Below are positions 8,931 through 60,593 of a stretch of 64,000 bases of DNA, piece by piece. The notes under the pieces were generated by a model. That model made no database searches. It saw only the letters and a list, made by a program, of their open reading frames with translations, and was not told the DNA's origin. The stretch's first letter is position 1. Each line of letters begins with the position of its first letter. This stretch comes from Aerophototrophica crusticola (GTDB lineage Bacteria; Pseudomonadota; Alphaproteobacteria; Azospirillales; Azospirillaceae): NCBI GenBank assembly GCA_001939945.1, contig MOEB01000002.1, positions 124,001-188,000 of the forward strand. Direction: 5' to 3'. The position numbers were made by a program, and so were the translations under genes.

Positions 8931-8974
8931 GGTGGTTCTCCCTGTGCCCCGTCCAAGGGGTCTCGTTAGTCTAG

Positions 8975-9089
8975 AGCGGTTGCCGGCCTGCCGGGAACCG
9001 CTCCGGCGGCGACCGCCGCCGCGCGGCCACGTGGCCGCGGAAGCCAAGCCGCGGATGCGGCGCCGGCGCCTGAGGAACACGAAGACTCA
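8975..9089. repeat. Multi-hairpin dispersed element, copy A
   Basis: The region between metY and the CoA-binding gene is a chain of four hairpins: AGCGGTT/AACCGCT (8975-9002), GGCGGCG-AC-CGCCGCC (9005-9020), CGCGGCC-ACGT-GGCCGCG (9022-9039) and GCCGC-GGAT-GCGGC (9048-9061). A tail GGCGCCTGAGG plus ACACGAAGACTCA (to 9089) follows. The same architecture occurs at 44584-44692, and the tail recurs at 30352-30376. The tail ends exactly on the stop codon of the minus-strand gene. It is non-coding in my reading. Confidence 0.75.
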
Positions 9090-9587
9090 GATCAGTTTCT
9101 TCACGGCCTTCACGGGCCGCTTCTTGGTGGTGATGATGTTGGAATTGATGCCCTGCCGGCCGATCTCCCCGAACAGGCGGGCATACTCGATCTTGGGGCA
9201 GCGATTCATGATGACGGTGGCGCCAAGCGCCTCCGCCTTGGCCGCGGCCTCGTCGTTGCGCACGCCCAACTGCATCCAGATCACCGGCACGCCCAACTCC
9301 GCCGCCTCCACCGCCACGGCTCCTGCGGCCTCGGCGTTGCGGAAGATGTCCACCATGTCCGGCCGCTCCGGCAGGTCCTTCAGGCTGGCATAGGCCTTCT
9401 CGCCCAGCACCTCCTTGCCCACCAGCCCGGGGTTGACCGGGATCATGCGGAAACCCTTGTCCGTCATGTACTTGGTCACATAGAAGCTGGCGCGCACCTC
9501 GTTGTCCGTGGCGCCGACCACGGCGATGGTCTTCACGCGCCCCAGCACGTCGCGGATGAAGTCGTCGGGGTACCAATCGTGGGTCAC
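9087..9587 (-). CDS. CoA-binding domain protein (YccU-like)
   Basis: The 166-residue protein has a Rossmann-type CoA-binding fold: VKTIAVVGATDNEVRASFYVTKYM, then MIPVNPGLVGKEVLGEKAYASL and a C-terminal LGATVIMNRCPKIEY. This pattern is widespread as a stand-alone CoA_binding protein of unknown physiological role. The start is GTG, with GGAGA upstream. Its stop lies on the edge of dispersed element A. It follows the enoyl-CoA hydratase-type gene by 19 bp, so the two may be co-transcribed and linked to acyl-CoA metabolism. Confidence 0.88.
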   Translation of the reverse strand: MTHDWYPDDFIRDVLGRVKTIAVVGATDNEVRASFYVTKYMTDKGFRMIPVNPGLVGKEVLGEKAYASLKDLPERPDMVDIFRNAEAAGAVAVEAAELGVPVIWMQLGVRNDEAAAKAEALGATVIMNRCPKIEYARLFGEIGRQGINSNIITTKKRPVKAVKKLI

Positions 9588-29505: not shown

Positions 29506-30285
29506 ATGCACGACCACGCCCACCACGCCGCCCAGGCCGTCCCGCACCTGCTGGAGGCCGCCAGCCTATGGCCCCTGATGGCGGCCCTGTTCATGACCGG
29601 GCTGGTGGGCGGGTTCGGGCACTGCACCGGCATGTGCGGCCCCTTCGTCATGGCCCAGGTGGCCGGGGGCATCGCCAACCGTCCCGCCAGCGCCGACACG
29701 GTGCTGCGCCGGGCCGCGGGTGGGGTGCTGGTGCCCTATCATCTGGGAAGGCTGACGACCTATGGCTTGCTCGGCGCCGTGGCGGGTGGGCTGTCCGGAA
29801 TGGTGGTGCAGGCCACCGGCTTCCGCTGGGTGCTGGTGGGCTTCCTGGCCCTGGCGGCCACGCTGTTCCTGCTCCAGGGTCTGGGCGGCCTCGCCCGCTG
29901 GATGCCGGCCCTGGCGGTATTCAAGAACGTGTCCGGGCTGGGTTGGGCCTCCCAGGTGGGCCAAGCCCTTTCCCGTCCCCTGCGGCCCCTGTTCGCGAAG
30001 CCCGGGGGCCTGAACGGCTACCTGCTGGGCGTGACACTGGGCTTCCTGCCCTGCGGCTTCCTGTATGCTGCCCTGGCGTCGGCCGTGGGGGCGGGCAGCA
30101 TGGTCGGCGGCCTTGCCCTGATGGCGGCTTTCGCCCTGGGCACCATGCCCAGCCTGATGACGGTGGGCATCCTGGGCTCCGTCGCCGGATCCCGCTGGGT
30201 CGGGGTGATGAAGGCGCTGACCCCGGCGCTGATGCTGTTCAACGCCGGGGTGGTCGCGACCATGGCCTGGCACGCGGCCGGTTAA
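29506..30285 (+). CDS. SafE/COG2836-type membrane protein, probable copper/cbb3-linked transporter
   Basis: The 259-residue protein has about six transmembrane segments and belongs to the sulfite exporter TauE/SafE-like COG2836 family related to DsbD-type transporters. A His-rich start (HDHAHHAAQ) precedes GGFGHCTGMCGPFVMAQV with two Cys residues, and GVTLGFLPCGFLYAAL holds another. COG2836 proteins often lie in cbb3 oxidase gene clusters, where a role in copper delivery or cytochrome maturation is suspected. An FNR-type box upstream and ccoN 1.3 kb away support that link. Confidence 0.82.
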   Translation: MHDHAHHAAQAVPHLLEAASLWPLMAALFMTGLVGGFGHCTGMCGPFVMAQVAGGIANRPASADTVLRRAAGGVLVPYHLGRLTTYGLLGAVAGGLSGMVVQATGFRWVLVGFLALAATLFLLQGLGGLARWMPALAVFKNVSGLGWASQVGQALSRPLRPLFAKPGGLNGYLLGVTLGFLPCGFLYAALASAVGAGSMVGGLALMAAFALGTMPSLMTVGILGSVAGSRWVGVMKALTPALMLFNAGVVATMAWHAAG

Positions 30286-30296
30286 CGCGGGTCAGG

Positions 30297-30376
30297 CTTC
30301 CGGTAACCGGAAGTCCGACCCGGCGTAGCCTGCCCCGGCCCCCGAGCCGGGGGCGCCTGAGGCACACGAAGACTCA
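30297..30376. repeat. Dispersed element, degenerate copy C
   Basis: The hairpin CTTCCGG-TAA-CCGGAAG (30297-30313) and the hairpin CCCCC-GAGCC-GGGGG (30339-30353) are followed by the tail GGCGCCTGAGG plus ACACGAAGACTCA (30352-30376). The 25-base tail matches copy A at 9065-9089 with one mismatch. As in copy A, it ends exactly on the stop codon of a minus-strand gene. Confidence 0.7.
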
Positions 30377-31171
30377 CACCGTTTCCCCGTCCTCCGCCAC
30401 CAGGTCCTTGTAGGCGTGCCAAGTGGCGTGGCCGATCAGGGGGAAGGCCACCGCCAACCCGAAGAACAGGGTGGCCAGACCGACACCGGTGAAGAAGACG
30501 ATGATGAACCCCCATAGCAGCATGGCCTTGGGGTTCACCTGCACCGCGGTGATGCTGGTGGCCACGGCGGTGAAGATGTTGGTCTGCCGGTCCAGCAGCA
30601 TGGGCAGTGACACGGCCGACAGGCAGAAGGCGGCGAAGGCCAGCACACCGCCCAGGGCCGTGCCCACCACCAGGAAGGGCAGGCTGACGGGGGAATTGAA
30701 GACCACCGACACCAAATTCTCGAAGCTGGGGTTCAGCCCGGAAAAGAACAGGGCATAGAGCAGTGTCGCCGTGCGGATCCAGAAGAGCTGGAGCAGCAGC
30801 AGCATCACCCCCATAAGCCCGATCTGCAGCCCGTTGGCCCGGAACGCGCCGAGGATGTCGCGGAACGAGGCTTCCTCACCCCGGGCCCGGCGGCGGCTGG
30901 CCTCATACAGCCCTACCGCGGCCAGCGGCGCCACCAGCATGAAGCCGGCGCACATGGGCAGCAGCAGGTAGAAATAGCCGGCCCCGGTCATGGCCAGCAC
31001 CAAGCCCCAGCTGAAAGCCGCGACGGTGGCGCCATAGGCGAGGCTGACCCGCCAGCCGGCGACCAGGTCGGCGTAGCCCATCTGCATCCAGTGCCAGGGC
31101 CTGTCCACGGCGATCCGTCGCACTTCGGGCGACGGGGTGGCGAATACGGGGACCACGTCGGTATGGTTCAT
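30374..31171 (-). CDS. DUF2189 membrane protein
   Basis: The 265-residue protein has six hydrophobic segments and the DUF2189 layout: DLVAGWRVSLAYGATVAAFSW, GFMLVAPLAAVGLYEASRR and a final FFGLAVAFPLIGHATWHAYKDLV. DUF2189 proteins are often near cytochrome oxidase genes but have no settled function. GGAGGAG precedes the ATG. It is divergent from ccoN across a 447-bp regulatory region that contains an FNR-type box. Confidence 0.88.
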   Translation of the reverse strand: MNHTDVVPVFATPSPEVRRIAVDRPWHWMQMGYADLVAGWRVSLAYGATVAAFSWGLVLAMTGAGYFYLLLPMCAGFMLVAPLAAVGLYEASRRRARGEEASFRDILGAFRANGLQIGLMGVMLLLLQLFWIRTATLLYALFFSGLNPSFENLVSVVFNSPVSLPFLVVGTALGGVLAFAAFCLSAVSLPMLLDRQTNIFTAVATSITAVQVNPKAMLLWGFIIVFFTGVGLATLFFGLAVAFPLIGHATWHAYKDLVAEDGETV

Positions 31172-44565: not shown

Positions 44566-44583
44566 ACCACCGGGTGCCTGATG

Positions 44584-44692
44584 CCAAGCGCATGAGTCGC
44601 CGGCTCATGCGCTTGGAGGCCGGCGACCGCCGGCCCGCGGGCTCGTGCCCGCGTGAGCCAAGGGCGCGGATGCGCCCGCCCGGCGTTTGAGG
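44584..44692. repeat. Multi-hairpin dispersed element, copy B
   Basis: Four hairpins in the same order as copy A: CCAAGCGCATGAG/CTCATGCGCTTGG (44584-44616), GCCGGCG-AC-CGCCGGC (44619-44634), CGCGGGC-TCGT-GCCCGCG (44636-44653) and GGCGC-GGAT-GCGCC (44663-44676). The spacer GAGCCAAG corresponds to GAAGCCAAG in copy A, and the tail CGGCGTTTGAGG to CGGCGCCTGAGG. Three stems carry compensatory changes relative to copy A. It fills the gap between pcm and the NlpD-like gene. Confidence 0.75.
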
Positions 44693-44727
44693 GCGCTGTT
44701 GATCGGTCACGATCAACGGCGGCGTGT

Positions 44728-46095
44728 ATGAGGGGAGTGCGTGGGTTGAGGGGTTCCAAGGGTTGGCGCGTGACGGCATGGGCGGTGGGCGCCCTGGTCC
44801 TGGCCGGCTGCTCCACAGGGCAGGCCCCTCCCGTCCCGTCGGGGGGCGGTGCGAACAGCATCTTCGTGTCGCAGGGTGACACGGTCTATACCCTGGCCCA
44901 GCAGTACCGGGTGCCCGTCCGTGAGTTGATCGAGGCCAACTGCCTGGCCGCCCCCTACGCCCTGTCCCCTGGCCAGCGCCTCATCCTGCCCGTGCCGCGG
45001 GATTACACGGTCCAGCCGGGCGACACGGTCTATGCCATCGCCCGCCAGTTCCAGGTGGACATGAGCGCGCTGGTGCGCCTCAACAACATCCAGCCGCCCT
45101 ATACCATCCGGGCGGGCCAGAGCTTGCGCCTGCCCGCCAGCAGCCCCACCCCGGCCACCACGGTGGCCCAGGCGACCACCCGCGCGCCGACGCCGCCCCC
45201 CGTGGCCCGGCCGTCGGCCCCCGCCACCTCCGCCCCGCCCACCCGCGCCACGCGGCTCAGCGTGGAGACGGAGGAACTGGCCCCGCCCGGCGGCCAACCC
45301 GCCCCCGCGGCGCCTTCGTCCAACAATGGCGCCCCGCTTCCCAAGCCCGTTCCGCCCCCTGCCACCCCGCCGGTCACCAGCCAACCCGCCAGCCGCACGG
45401 TCACCACCCCGCCCGTCACCACGGCCCCCACGGGCCCCGCCCCCGTCAGCAAGCGGGGGATGGAGGCGGAGTCCCTGCCGCCCCCGTCGGGGAGCACGGC
45501 ATCTCCCGCCGGTCAGGCCGCCCAGGCGCCGACGGCCCCGTCCTCCGCCGTCCCGCCCGCGTCGCGAGCCACGCCGGCCCCGGTGGACCGTCCCGCGGCC
45601 GCCGACCCGGCCCCGACCGCCACCCGGCCGACGCCGCCCCCAGGCCAAGCCCCCGTGCCGCCGTCAGAGGCAGCCTCCCAGGTCGCGGCCTTGCCCAGCA
45701 CCCCACCGCCCCGGGCGGGTGGCCGCTTTGCCTGGCCGGTGCGCGGCCCGATCCTGTCCGACTACGGCCCCAAGCCTGACGGCCTGCGCAACGACGGCAT
45801 CAATATCGGCGCACCGAAGGGCACCCCGGTGAAGGCGGCTGACAACGGCATTGTCGCCTATGCCGGCAACCAGCTTCGCGCCTTCGGCAACCTGGTGCTG
45901 GTCCGCCACGACGGCGGCCTGGTCACCGTCTACGGCCACCTGGACAGCATGTCGGTGGAGCAGGGCCAGCGCGTCACCAAGGGCCAAGCCATCGGCACCG
46001 TCGGCCAGACCGGCAACGTCCGCTCCCCCCAACTCCATTTCGGCCTGCGCAAGGGCGAGACGCCGCTGAACCCGACGGATCAGTTAGAGCGGTGA
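44728..46095 (+). CDS. nlpD: LysM/M23 endopeptidase-like lipoprotein (NlpD family)
   Basis: The 455-residue protein has a lipoprotein signal (VTAWAVGALVLAGCST, lipobox LAGC). Two LysM domains follow (IFVSQGDTVYTLAQQYRVPV at about 50-95 and YTVQPGDTVYAIARQFQVDM at about 103-148), then a ~200-residue Pro/Ala/Thr-rich linker and a C-terminal M23 domain (FAWPVRGPILSDYGPK to QLHFGLRKGETPLNP). The M23 zinc ligands are incomplete as in NlpD (INIGAPKGTPV lacks the usual His), so it probably activates amidases. The position after surE-pcm matches the classical nlpD order, but rpoS is absent here. Confidence 0.9.
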   Translation: MRGVRGLRGSKGWRVTAWAVGALVLAGCSTGQAPPVPSGGGANSIFVSQGDTVYTLAQQYRVPVRELIEANCLAAPYALSPGQRLILPVPRDYTVQPGDTVYAIARQFQVDMSALVRLNNIQPPYTIRAGQSLRLPASSPTPATTVAQATTRAPTPPPVARPSAPATSAPPTRATRLSVETEELAPPGGQPAPAAPSSNNGAPLPKPVPPPATPPVTSQPASRTVTTPPVTTAPTGPAPVSKRGMEAESLPPPSGSTASPAGQAAQAPTAPSSAVPPASRATPAPVDRPAAADPAPTATRPTPPPGQAPVPPSEAASQVAALPSTPPPRAGGRFAWPVRGPILSDYGPKPDGLRNDGINIGAPKGTPVKAADNGIVAYAGNQLRAFGNLVLVRHDGGLVTVYGHLDSMSVEQGQRVTKGQAIGTVGQTGNVRSPQLHFGLRKGETPLNPTDQLER

Positions 46096-58197: not shown

Positions 58198-59292
58198 CTA
58201 TTTCTGGGCGATCGGCGCGAATTTGCCGTCGGACCAGCGGTACAGGACATAATCCGTGTCAGTCCGGTCGCCCTTCTTGTCGAAGGACAGGGCGCCGATG
58301 GCCGTGTCGTACTTGCCCTCACGCATCGCCTTGGCGACCTTGGGGCCGTCCAGGGACTTGGCCTTCTCCGCGGCCGTGGCCCAGGCCTGCACGGCGGCAT
58401 AGGCATAGAGGGTATAGGCGTCCGGCTCCTGGCCCTTGGCGCGGAATCGGGCGATCACCTCCTGCGCCGCGGGCTGGCTGCGGGCGTCGGCGCTGAAGGT
58501 CATCATGGCGCCCTCGCCGGCCTTGCCCGCCAGGGTCCAGAACTCGTTGGAGGCAAGGGTGTCGCCGGAGAGGAAGGCGGCAGTCACGCCGGCCTCCCGC
58601 ATCTGGCGAACGAACACGCCAGCGTCCGCGTAATAGCCACCGAAGTACAAGGCATCCACATTCTCCGCCTTCAGGCGGGTCACCAGGGCGGAGAAGTCCC
58701 GCTCACCGCCGGTGATGGCGGTGTACAGCACTTCCTTCAGGCCCTTGGCGTTCATGGCTGCCTTGGTGGCATCCGCCAGGCCCTTGCCGTAGGTGGTCTG
58801 GTCCTGCACCAGGGCCACCCGCTTGCCGGCGAAGTTCTCCACCAACCATTGGGCGGCGATGGGGCCCTGCTGGTCATCGCGGCCGCAGGTGCGGAACACC
58901 AGGTCGCTGCCGCTGTCCGTCAGTTCCGGCGCGGTGGCGGTGGGGGTGATCATGATGATCCCCTCATCACCATAGACCTGGGATGCCGGGATGCTGGTGC
59001 CGGACTGGAGATGGCCGACCACCATCCTCGCCCCCTGCGTAGCCAGCTTGTTGGCGACGGCGACGGCCTGGGTCGGCACACCGGCATCGTCATGGACGGC
59101 CACGGTGATCTTCTGCCCCAGCACGCCACCCGCGGCGTTAAGGTCCGCCGCGGCCTGCTCCGTCCCGCGCCGCAGCTGCTCCCCCACTGCGGCGAGGGGG
59201 CCGGTCAGGGGGCCGGCGGAGCCGATGACGATCTCGGCATGGGCGGAGGACACGGCCAGGGCCATGGCCGCGGCGGCAAGCAGGGTGCGCAT
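58198..59292 (-). CDS. Branched-chain amino-acid ABC transporter substrate-binding protein (copy 1)
   Basis: This is a 364-residue periplasmic binding protein of the LivJ/LivK type, with signal peptide MRTLLAAAAMALAVSSAHA. Family features are IVIGSAGPLTGPLAAVGEQLRRGTEQAAADLNAAGG, FRTCGRDDQQGPIAAQWL, VQDQTTYGKGLADATKAAM and ALYFGGYYADAGVFVRQM. It is strongly similar along its length to the next gene. No permease or ATPase genes (livHMGF) are near, so the transporter partner is elsewhere. Confidence 0.92.
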   Translation of the reverse strand: MRTLLAAAAMALAVSSAHAEIVIGSAGPLTGPLAAVGEQLRRGTEQAAADLNAAGGVLGQKITVAVHDDAGVPTQAVAVANKLATQGARMVVGHLQSGTSIPASQVYGDEGIIMITPTATAPELTDSGSDLVFRTCGRDDQQGPIAAQWLVENFAGKRVALVQDQTTYGKGLADATKAAMNAKGLKEVLYTAITGGERDFSALVTRLKAENVDALYFGGYYADAGVFVRQMREAGVTAAFLSGDTLASNEFWTLAGKAGEGAMMTFSADARSQPAAQEVIARFRAKGQEPDAYTLYAYAAVQAWATAAEKAKSLDGPKVAKAMREGKYDTAIGALSFDKKGDRTDTDYVLYRWSDGKFAPIAQK

Positions 59293-59480: not shown

Positions 59481-60593
59481 TCAGCCCTGGCCCGGGACCG
59501 GCTTGTAGCTGCCGTTGGACCATTTGTAGACGATGTAGTCGGTCTTCTTACGGTCGCCCTTGGCATCAAAGGACAGCGGGCCGATGACGGTGCTGTACTC
59601 CCCGTCGCGCAGGGCCTTGGCGACCTTCGCGGCGTCGGTGCTCTTGGCCTTTTCCGCCGCCTGGGCCCAGGCCTGGACCGCGGCGTAGGTGTAGAGGGTG
59701 TAGGCCTCCGGCTCGAAGTTCTTGGCGCGGAAGCGCTTCACCACCTCCGCCGCCTCCGGCTTGTCGCGGTTCTCCGCGCCGAAGGTGACCAGGGCGCCCT
59801 CCGCCGTGTTGCCGGCGATGTTCCAGAACTCCTGGTTCACGGTGCCGTCGCCGGAGATGAACTGCGCCTTCAGCCCCGCCTCCGCCATCTGGCGGACCAG
59901 AAGCCCACCCTCCGTGTGCAGGCCGCCGAAATAGACCACCTGGATGCCGGCGTTCTTCATCTTGGTGATCAGGGCGGACATGTCGCGGTCGCCCACGGTC
60001 ACCGCGTCATACATGGCCTCCTTCACCCCGGCTTTGTTCATGGCCGCCTTGGTGGCATCCGCCAGACCCTTGCCATAGGTGGTCTGGTCGTGGATGACGG
60101 CGACCTTGTCGGCCTTGTGGTTCTTGGCGATCCAAGCGGCGGCCACGTCGCCCTGCTGGTCGTCGCGGCCGCAGGTGCGGAACACCGTGTCCAGCCCCTG
60201 CTCGGTCAGTTGCGGGTTGGTGGAGGCCGGGCTGATCATGATGATCCCCTCGTCGGCATAGACCTTCGAGGAGGGGATGGAGACCGCGGAGTTGAAGTTT
60301 CCGAACACCGCCACGGCCCCGGCGGTGGCCATCTTGTTGGCGACGGCAACGCCTTGGCTGGGGTTGGAGGCGTCGTCCTCATTCACCAGGCGCAGCTTTT
60401 CCCCCAGCACGCCGCCCTTGGCGTTCAGGTCGGCCACGGCCATGTCGGCGCCGTTGCGCATCTGGATGCCGAACACGGTGTTGGGGCCGGTCAGCGGGCC
60501 GGCCATCCCGACCACGATCTCGGCCTGGGCCGGGGAAATCGCCACGAGGGCAACCGTCGCCAGCATGGCGAGGAGCGACGTCTTTTTCTTCAT
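59481..60593 (-). CDS. Branched-chain amino-acid ABC transporter substrate-binding protein (copy 2)
   Basis: The 370-residue protein starts MKKKTSLLAMLATVALVAIS with a signal peptide (cleavage near AQA). It has the same motifs as copy 1: IVVGMAGPLTGPNTVFGIQMRNGAD, FRTCGRDDQQGDVAAAWI, IHDQTTYGKGLADATKAAM and VVYFGGLHTEGGLLVRQMAEAG. The two genes are clear tandem paralogues. Codons upstream of 60593 in frame are rejected; the AAGGGAGATGG stretch before it contains a ribosome site. Confidence 0.93.
   Translation of the reverse strand: MKKKTSLLAMLATVALVAISPAQAEIVVGMAGPLTGPNTVFGIQMRNGADMAVADLNAKGGVLGEKLRLVNEDDASNPSQGVAVANKMATAGAVAVFGNFNSAVSIPSSKVYADEGIIMISPASTNPQLTEQGLDTVFRTCGRDDQQGDVAAAWIAKNHKADKVAVIHDQTTYGKGLADATKAAMNKAGVKEAMYDAVTVGDRDMSALITKMKNAGIQVVYFGGLHTEGGLLVRQMAEAGLKAQFISGDGTVNQEFWNIAGNTAEGALVTFGAENRDKPEAAEVVKRFRAKNFEPEAYTLYTYAAVQAWAQAAEKAKSTDAAKVAKALRDGEYSTVIGPLSFDAKGDRKKTDYIVYKWSNGSYKPVPGQG

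Follow-up and report, generated by a model that had tools for sequence, protein, structure and literature searches.

Transposons of the IS630 family normally duplicate the dinucleotide TA when they insert, and single-strand transposition of the RAYT type makes no target duplication. Among short repeats, RUP, which is 107 bp long and has about a hundred intergenic copies in pneumococcus, has been proposed to be moved in trans by an IS630-family transposase, that of IS630-Spn1 (PMC2229807). RUP/IS630-Spn1 and the CIR repeats of Caulobacter and relatives are the nearest precedents for the element considered here (PMC2229807). Two copies of this element lie in gaps of the window, that is, the whole 64,000-nucleotide stretch of DNA from Aerophototrophica crusticola that was analysed. 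Both are probably miniature non-autonomous transposons that share a core and not their ends, and the family as a whole is likely to consist of MITE-like non-autonomous DNA transposons with IS630-type ends. Searches of one literature collection, by motif letters and by kind of repeat, listed no description of the element, papers beyond that collection being outside the search; the RepRanger paper (PMC12306157) names one alphaproteobacterium with 1,369 REPs, which may include the present element.

The original prediction had placed one chain of hairpins in both gaps, and the sequence and folds of both copies bear this out. The RNA fold of copy 1 has an energy of -73.5 kcal/mol (z -3.65) and that of copy 2 an energy of -102.2 kcal/mol (z -7.08); for each, 0 of 200 dinucleotide shuffles were as low. 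The predicted four-hairpin chain is the plan common to both copies, but copy 2 has a fifth hairpin beyond the interval first considered; its position close to the 3' end of the element is supported by the IS630-like 3' ends that occur in other B-type copies. It had also been seen that the first stems are unrelated; they differ completely because two end types share one core. Copy 1 is of the A type, and its NTA/GAGC start (slashes mark element boundaries) is seen in most of the A-type copies listed; its other end abuts the stop codon (9087-9089) of a minus-strand gene, 9087-9587. Copy 2, of the B type, probably extends between two flanking TGA triplets (Table 1), and its ends, TGCCA...GTGTA, are taken from their letters as decayed TACCA...TGGTA. 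The third copy in the window consists of hairpin 1, a different G+C-rich hairpin and the TGAGG tail, and sits between convergent genes at 29506-30285 (+) and 30374-31171 (-). Elsewhere in the window, two 300-nt direct repeats (58210-58509 and 59496-59795), 72% identical and located within neighbouring minus-strand genes, are likely to represent paralogous genes.

Table 1. Positions of the element copies and their parts within the window.
Feature	Position	Strand	Basis
Copy 1, TA abutting the GAGC end on its 5' side, possible target letters (inferred)	8972..8973	+	sequence
Copy 1, hairpin 1 (GAGCGGTT...AACCGCTC), A-type 5' end	8974..9003	+	fold, covariance model R1
Copy 1, hairpin 2 (CGGCGGC GACC GCCGCCG)	9004..9021	+	fold, covariation
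Copy 1, hairpin 3 (CGCGGCC ACGT GGCCGCG)	9022..9039	+	fold, covariation
Copy 1, conserved core around hairpin 4	9043..9075	+	fold, model R1, covariation
Copy 1, core helix enclosing hairpin 4	GCC 9043-9045 / GGC 9065-9067		
Copy 1, hairpin 4	9048-9061 (GGAT loop 9053-9056)	+	
Copy 1, candidate pseudoknot (may form)	CC 9063-9064 / GG 9074-9075		
Copy 1, tail, without hairpin 5	9076..9086	+	sequence, gene calls
Third copy, partial or mosaic	30284..30372	+	R1, 25.8 bits, E 9e-6
Copy 2, left TGA triplet, proposed direct repeat	44579..44581	+	sequence
Copy 2, proposed entire B-type element (TGCCA...GTGTA)	44582..44728	+	sequence, fold, R1
Copy 2, hairpin 1, B-type 5' end	44584..44616	+	fold
Copy 2, hairpin 2 (GGCCGGC GACC GCCGGCC)	44618..44635	+	fold
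Copy 2, hairpin 3 (CGCGGGC TCGT GCCCGCG)	44636..44653	+	fold
Copy 2, conserved core with GCC/GGC helix	44657..44693	+	fold (hairpin 4), R1
Copy 2, hairpin 4	44662-44677	+	fold
Copy 2, candidate pseudoknot (possible)	CCC 44679-44681 / GGG 44691-44693		
Copy 2, hairpin 5, close to the element's 3' end	44695..44720	+	fold
Copy 2, right TGA triplet, proposed direct repeat	44729..44731	+	sequence

The element is abundant in its own genome. BLAST with copy 1 finds 41 places at E<=1e-3, and the covariance model R1, built from 36 copies of this genome including both window copies (which match by construction), finds at least 148 matches at the same threshold among 150 candidates scored, far more than the two copies from which the prediction had started and which it had proposed to extend by just such a search. 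Short (about 110-150 bp), protein-free and dispersed, the element has in these respects what is expected of a MITE. R1 also matches 23 of 40 genomes (its own and 39 relatives), among them all 11 of the genus. Beyond these, a DNA pattern of the core recovers at least 114 stretches in public genomes, from Niveispirillum, Nitrospirillum, Azospirillum, Roseomonas and relatives, Sphingomonas, Erythrobacter, Methylobacterium, Jiella and Nitratireductor among others. In an evenly drawn survey of alphaproteobacterial genomes (E<=1e-5 with stricter filters), the core model R2 matches 16 of 192, its own genome and G005 counted in the 16, and these matches are spread patchily over families. In plasmids, BLAST with copy 2 matches three records and with copy 1 none. 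Rfam has no family on the element in the window at gathering score or, on copy 1, at relaxed score, and no match on the element in the five distant loci searched. When the called genes of 151 loci were clustered in search of a linked gene, the largest clusters were common families. Several loci show other features nearby: at L077:7560-7684 a match to the suhB/mmgR sRNA (RF00519) stops where an opposite-strand core copy starts; at four loci of different taxa (L095, L098, L131, L164) the core lies, at varying positions, near genes that by sequence look like rpmI-rplT-pheS-pheT; and at the distant loci L149, L170, L133, L113 and L128 paired core copies of opposite orientation, ~150 bp apart, have a BIME-like arrangement.

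For covariation, 93 distinct copies, taken from 94 matches at E<=1e-8 in 99 sources (the genus and other relatives), were aligned to R1 in an alignment that leans to the structure. Standard pairs make up 97.1% of the 3150 cells. Changes on both sides are found in 592 cells, compared with 153.6 in shuffles (0 of 500 as high) and at most 132 in slid controls, and the covariation score of 0.507 likewise exceeds both controls (shuffled 0.115, slid no more than 0.074). The covariation described in the original prediction is real and strong, and neither of the outcomes named there as refuting it, two copies only or no covariation, came about. All 13 pairs of the hairpin 1 helix show double-sided changes. 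G-U cells outnumber A-C cells (79 to 25 in all stems, 25 to 9 in hairpins 2-4) in an alignment, A2, whose fit to the structure favours G-U. A second alignment covers 61 copies of many taxa. The pattern used to choose them prescribes many positions, and invariant columns in this set therefore carry no evidence. Three pairs of hairpin 4 have double-sided changes there. Double-changed cells number 68, where shuffles give 23.6, and the score of 0.212 compares with 0.049, neither value being reached in any of 500 shuffles; the numbers of double-changed pairs and of pair types are not above shuffles in this set (271 and 196 of 500, respectively).

The motifs of the core are AGCCAAG, the GGAT loop and CCGGCGnnTGAGG; GCCAAG, GGAT and CGGCGnnTGAGG, along with the covarying stems, are present as had been described. 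Of 27 distant matches listed out of 126, 25 lie outside the search pattern; among these, GCCAAG is kept in 16, GGAT in 16 and TGAGG in 22, and they carry other stems, for example GGCCGGATGGCC and CGACGGATGTCG. GCCAAG and CCGGC may form a helix through their GCC and GGC, letters that hardly vary and show no covariation. In addition, an extra base before CCGGC, nearly always C, accompanies a G after TGAGG: this G is present in 21 of 22 genus-set copies and 69 of 77 distant-set copies that have the extra base, and in 21 of 59 and 3 of 29, respectively, of those that do not. In the many-taxa alignment, 49 copies have both letters, and in 40 of these the two form a standard pair. By this pattern of letters, (C)CC may pair with GG(G) across the GCC/GGC helix as a core pseudoknot; the association is confounded by relatedness, and the remaining pairs of both helices are invariant. 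With hundreds of copies, one fold and independent stems, the family is a natural library for the question of RNA versus single-stranded DNA.

Insight into the ends comes from comparing filled with empty sites. B-subtype elements start with TACCA and end with TGGTA and may lie between two direct copies of a 3-bp TNA, of which the empty site has just one; A-subtype elements have the ends TA/GAGC...GCTC/TA. Of 14 listed junctions between G009 and G002, 10 carry the core. An exact TNA repeat flanks 6 of these 10 (TAA, TGA, TAA, TGA, TCA, TTA), the empty site having one triplet, as in empty GAG-TAA-GG versus filled GAG-TAA[TACTATC...GCTGGTA]TAA-GG. (Two of the six have an empty triplet that is off by one base, TGA for TAA and CGA for TGA; two have a 3' end unlike TGGTA.) In three more of the 10 the two repeats differ at a single base, and one of these three copies is truncated at its 5' end; the last junction is ambiguous. 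The corresponding core-bearing, non-GAGC junctions with a real gap between G010 and G005 are less regular: one of five has an exact TNA (TTA/TTA, empty TCA), one has TAG/TAA, and three have no repeat, which speaks against duplication. A scan of copies, which overlaps the junction genomes and is not independent of the filled and empty junctions, finds a recognisable TACC 5' end in 23 and GGTA as well in 17, with identical flanking triplets, all TNA, in 8 of the 17. The target-site duplication typical of a MITE is thus present for part of the TACCA type. For the GAGC subtype, most of 31 listed copies show the start (N)TA/GAGC and the end GCTC/TA or GGTC/TA. Of its four filled/empty junctions, one fits TA (empty CCTTGATC, filled CCTTAGAGC...GCTCTAGATC, one base short), two are not clean, and one is clean without duplication, against a TA target; that TA is the target of this subtype is suggested by these letters with less weight than TNA for the other.

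The ends also point to a particular transposon group. In G009, an IS630-type transposon (L300:862-2026) has the form TCA/TACCAAGTCC...GGACTTGGTA/TCA, and its frames carry HTH and DDE_3 domains. Together with six more, fetched from 290 plasmid records matching L300, it makes seven IS630 transposons, five of which, 1159-1165 bp long, run from TACC to GGTA between two identical TNA triplets (TCA, TCA, TAA, TTA, TTA); of the remaining two, one is flanked by TAG/TAA and the other has no recognised ends. L300, L309, L310, L311 and L313 form an alphaproteobacterial IS630 group with TACCA ends and a 3-bp TNA repeat instead of TA. Over the 3' 18 bases, 23 of 39 element copies match one of these IS630 ends at 12 or more positions, compared with 4.7% of shuffles that preserve the last four bases; the 39 are those of 230 cores with GGTW+TNA ends and include related copies of single genomes. 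At the 5' end the element has little beyond TACCA in common with IS630. Against the link are the finding of TACCA ends in only one (L300) of nine DDE_3 loci in seven genomes of the genus, the three of the element's own genome, G000, being without them, and the lack of any match to PF13358 or PF13340 in G010, which has many copies. The TA duplication of standard IS630 is not what is observed, since B-type junctions and five of the seven IS630 copies show TNA; the element is therefore described as linked to the TACCA/TNA subgroup and not as a standard IS630 MITE. As for the GAGC subtype, an IS630-type transposon of G002, L304, has the ends TA/GAGCATCG...CGATGCTC/TA and is by this resemblance a possible, if weak, candidate counterpart. 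Other candidate sources of ends were set aside: IS4/5-type hits (PF13340) had no TACCA ends, and the TAGAGTCC ends of L290 resemble the GAGC type in their first letters only.

Comparison of close relatives, G010 with G005 (coding identity 92.7%, ~358 kb aligned) and G009 with G002 (94.2%, ~186 kb), indicates that sites are gained and lost: in the two pairs together, 22 of 29 placed sites are occupied in one genome only. For G010/G005 the 16 placed sites comprise 5 common, 9 G010-only and 2 G005-only, with one more rearranged; G005 keeps a remnant at two of the nine, which are consequently losses. For G009/G002, where 32 of 47 hits were unplaceable, the 13 placed sites comprise six and five private to one or other genome and two occupied in both. 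These two gene ends (G009 block e 91291 and 97287; G002 block 6 69790 and 63829) hold different elements, which implies either two hits on the same gene end or replacement of the element; at one of them the two elements are apparently oppositely oriented. One-sided occupancy, the TNA repeats and the IS630-type ends together argue that the element is mobile. Both pairs (L201-L220 versus L221-L240, and the G009/G002 junctions) also vary in other intergenic repeats: a large GTCGCATGCGGGC hairpin element, a chain with GGCGGCATGGGCCGCC and GCGCCAGTCGGCGC that has no GCCAAG core, and CCCCGGC...GCCGGGG palindromes.

In the five copies common to G010 and G005, 39 of 667 aligned bases (5.8%) are different; the corresponding figures are 8.3% for non-coding DNA that can be aligned and 19.5% for four-fold sites. 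Some of them have lost motifs (GGAT to GAAT, GCCAAG to GCCTAG, TGAGG to TGAAG) or hairpins 3-4. Their 168 pairs include 5 that one species has broken, 4 with one-sided and 7 with two-sided changes. All seven lie at one locus, at which the two arms of hairpin 1 seem to have been rewritten jointly; the sample is too small to exclude constraint. At one pair of loci, L212:13414-13529 and L224:1393-1514, the arms of hairpin 1 differ by a block of complementary changes, which looks, from the sequence, like a single template-switch event.

Placement of 296 copies relative to genes, made with the analysis's own gene finder and possibly counting some copies twice through overlapping records, gives 1 inside a called gene, 90 between convergent, 22 between divergent and 133 between tandem genes, with 50 unplaced; background spacers of at least 40 nt in the compared blocks number 133, 241 and 532, respectively. 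A preferred orientation, which the original prediction had raised, did not emerge: tandem pairs contain 76 sense and 57 antisense copies (p 0.12). The ratio is 16:8 in G000, 19:27 in genus and family relatives and 41:22 in distant loci, and a sense preference drawn from a smaller count (48 against 24) was dropped when the larger one failed to confirm it. In 45 of 223 copies that face a gene end, a TSD-like end is exactly in frame with the stop codon, a count made with loose end patterns and no computed chance level. For the GAGC type, TA and the first G of the element give a TAG stop; in some copies of the TACCA type the TNA repeat itself serves as stop codon. Such landing would follow from the TNA and TA letters, presumably scarce in G+C-rich DNA and present in stops, together with regeneration of the stop. 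The location at gene ends reflects either a preference of the enzyme or the survival of harmless insertions, and the data fit both.

A different reading, that the element is a cis-acting structured RNA at gene 3' ends (a terminator, stabiliser or processing signal) selected at each site, draws on the strong covariation of the stems, the conserved unpaired motifs, the location at gene ends, the divergence of common copies below that of four-fold sites, and the excess of G-U over A-C that is expected if a given strand folds, although the alignment itself favours G-U. It is nevertheless unlikely. Relatives with 93-94% identical coding DNA differ at most placed sites, the tandem orientation is not significantly biased and is reversed in genus and family relatives, common copies have broken pairs, and their double changes are confined to one locus. 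Because the orientation bias is not significant and common copies have lost motifs or hairpins 3-4, a cis-RNA role at each site is unsupported. The original proposal of selection on a folded RNA or structured DNA stands for the family as a whole, whose structure persists from one subfamily or distant taxon to another, but not as selection per site, since the element behaves as mobile. It is similarly improbable that the palindromes owe their persistence to template switching in hairpins, a mutational process, with the element mobile and its structure neutral. The blockwise change on both arms of hairpin 1 in one common copy and the many unrelated first stems would suit this process, which can hold together with the MITE reading, but the unpaired motifs are also conserved among the listed matches outside the pattern.

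Two known kinds of repeat have smaller claims. A REP/BIME family moved as a single strand by a RAYT (Y1 transposase) would share with the element its dispersed, palindromic, extragenic nature, its mosaic combinations of modules and the junctions without duplication; it is very unlikely, given the 3-bp direct repeats, the IS630-like ends and the 0 matches to PF01797 in the element's own genome, in a search whose control was positive in 5 of 14 named genomes. CIR repeats, compared here by description and not by sequence, are likewise alphaproteobacterial, of ~110 bp, built of two arms and a linker and located outside genes (PMC2229807). The GANTC site is present in 6 of 94 element copies and 0 of 123 cores, and membership in that family is hardly credible.

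Taken together, these comparisons favour mobile, MITE-like elements with IS630-type ends, and a mechanism can be proposed. The TACCA...TGGTA type would be moved in trans by an IS630-family transposase, and the GAGC...GCTC type would have relied on ends of another kind, whose targets were probably TA. As TNA and TA are letters of stop codons, the repeat, or TA plus the first G of the element, would restore the stop; consequently, insertions exactly at gene ends would be harmless and would survive. The internal hairpins would be maintained by selection on active elements and not at each site, and the class-wide core may, as a guess, help the element to move or to be tolerated, whether through folding as a single strand or through insulation of transcripts. 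A bolder and rather doubtful extension is that of a class-wide mobile stop-codon module, in which a conserved, pseudoknotted RNA or single-stranded DNA core with swapped IS630-type ends would spread by insertion into stop codons, remake the stop every time, give genes a structured 3' end and be recognised by a widespread alphaproteobacterial factor; if so, the core, and not the ends, would be the conserved entity. On the MITE-like reading, a feature that abounds between the genes of these genomes is explained and becomes connected with a subgroup of transposons whose 3-bp TNA repeat is unusual; the reading also suggests a route for mobile elements into gene-dense genomes, namely to land on stop codons and restore them.

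Among known systems, REP/BIME with RAYT, ERIC and NEMIS resemble the element as dispersed palindromic repeats outside genes; it differs from them in its TNA repeats and in a core common to families of the class, and its own genome has no Y1 match. CIR of Caulobacter and Brucella are alphaproteobacterial intergenic two-arm repeats with TA ends (PMC2229807); CIR carries a conserved GANTC, and the present element does not. The TACCA-ended IS630 transposons share with it TACCA/TGGTA and the TNA repeats and are similar to it in the 3' 18 bases, but they are ~1.16 kb long with a transposase, whereas the element has none and is without a long matching 5' repeat. RUP/IS630-Spn1 is alike in being small, with about a hundred intergenic copies and a proposed IS630-type mover, and its sites contain TA, whereas the present element has TNA repeats at one end type (PMC2229807). 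Unlike RUP, the present element consists internally of successive hairpins and a conserved core, which carries two end types.
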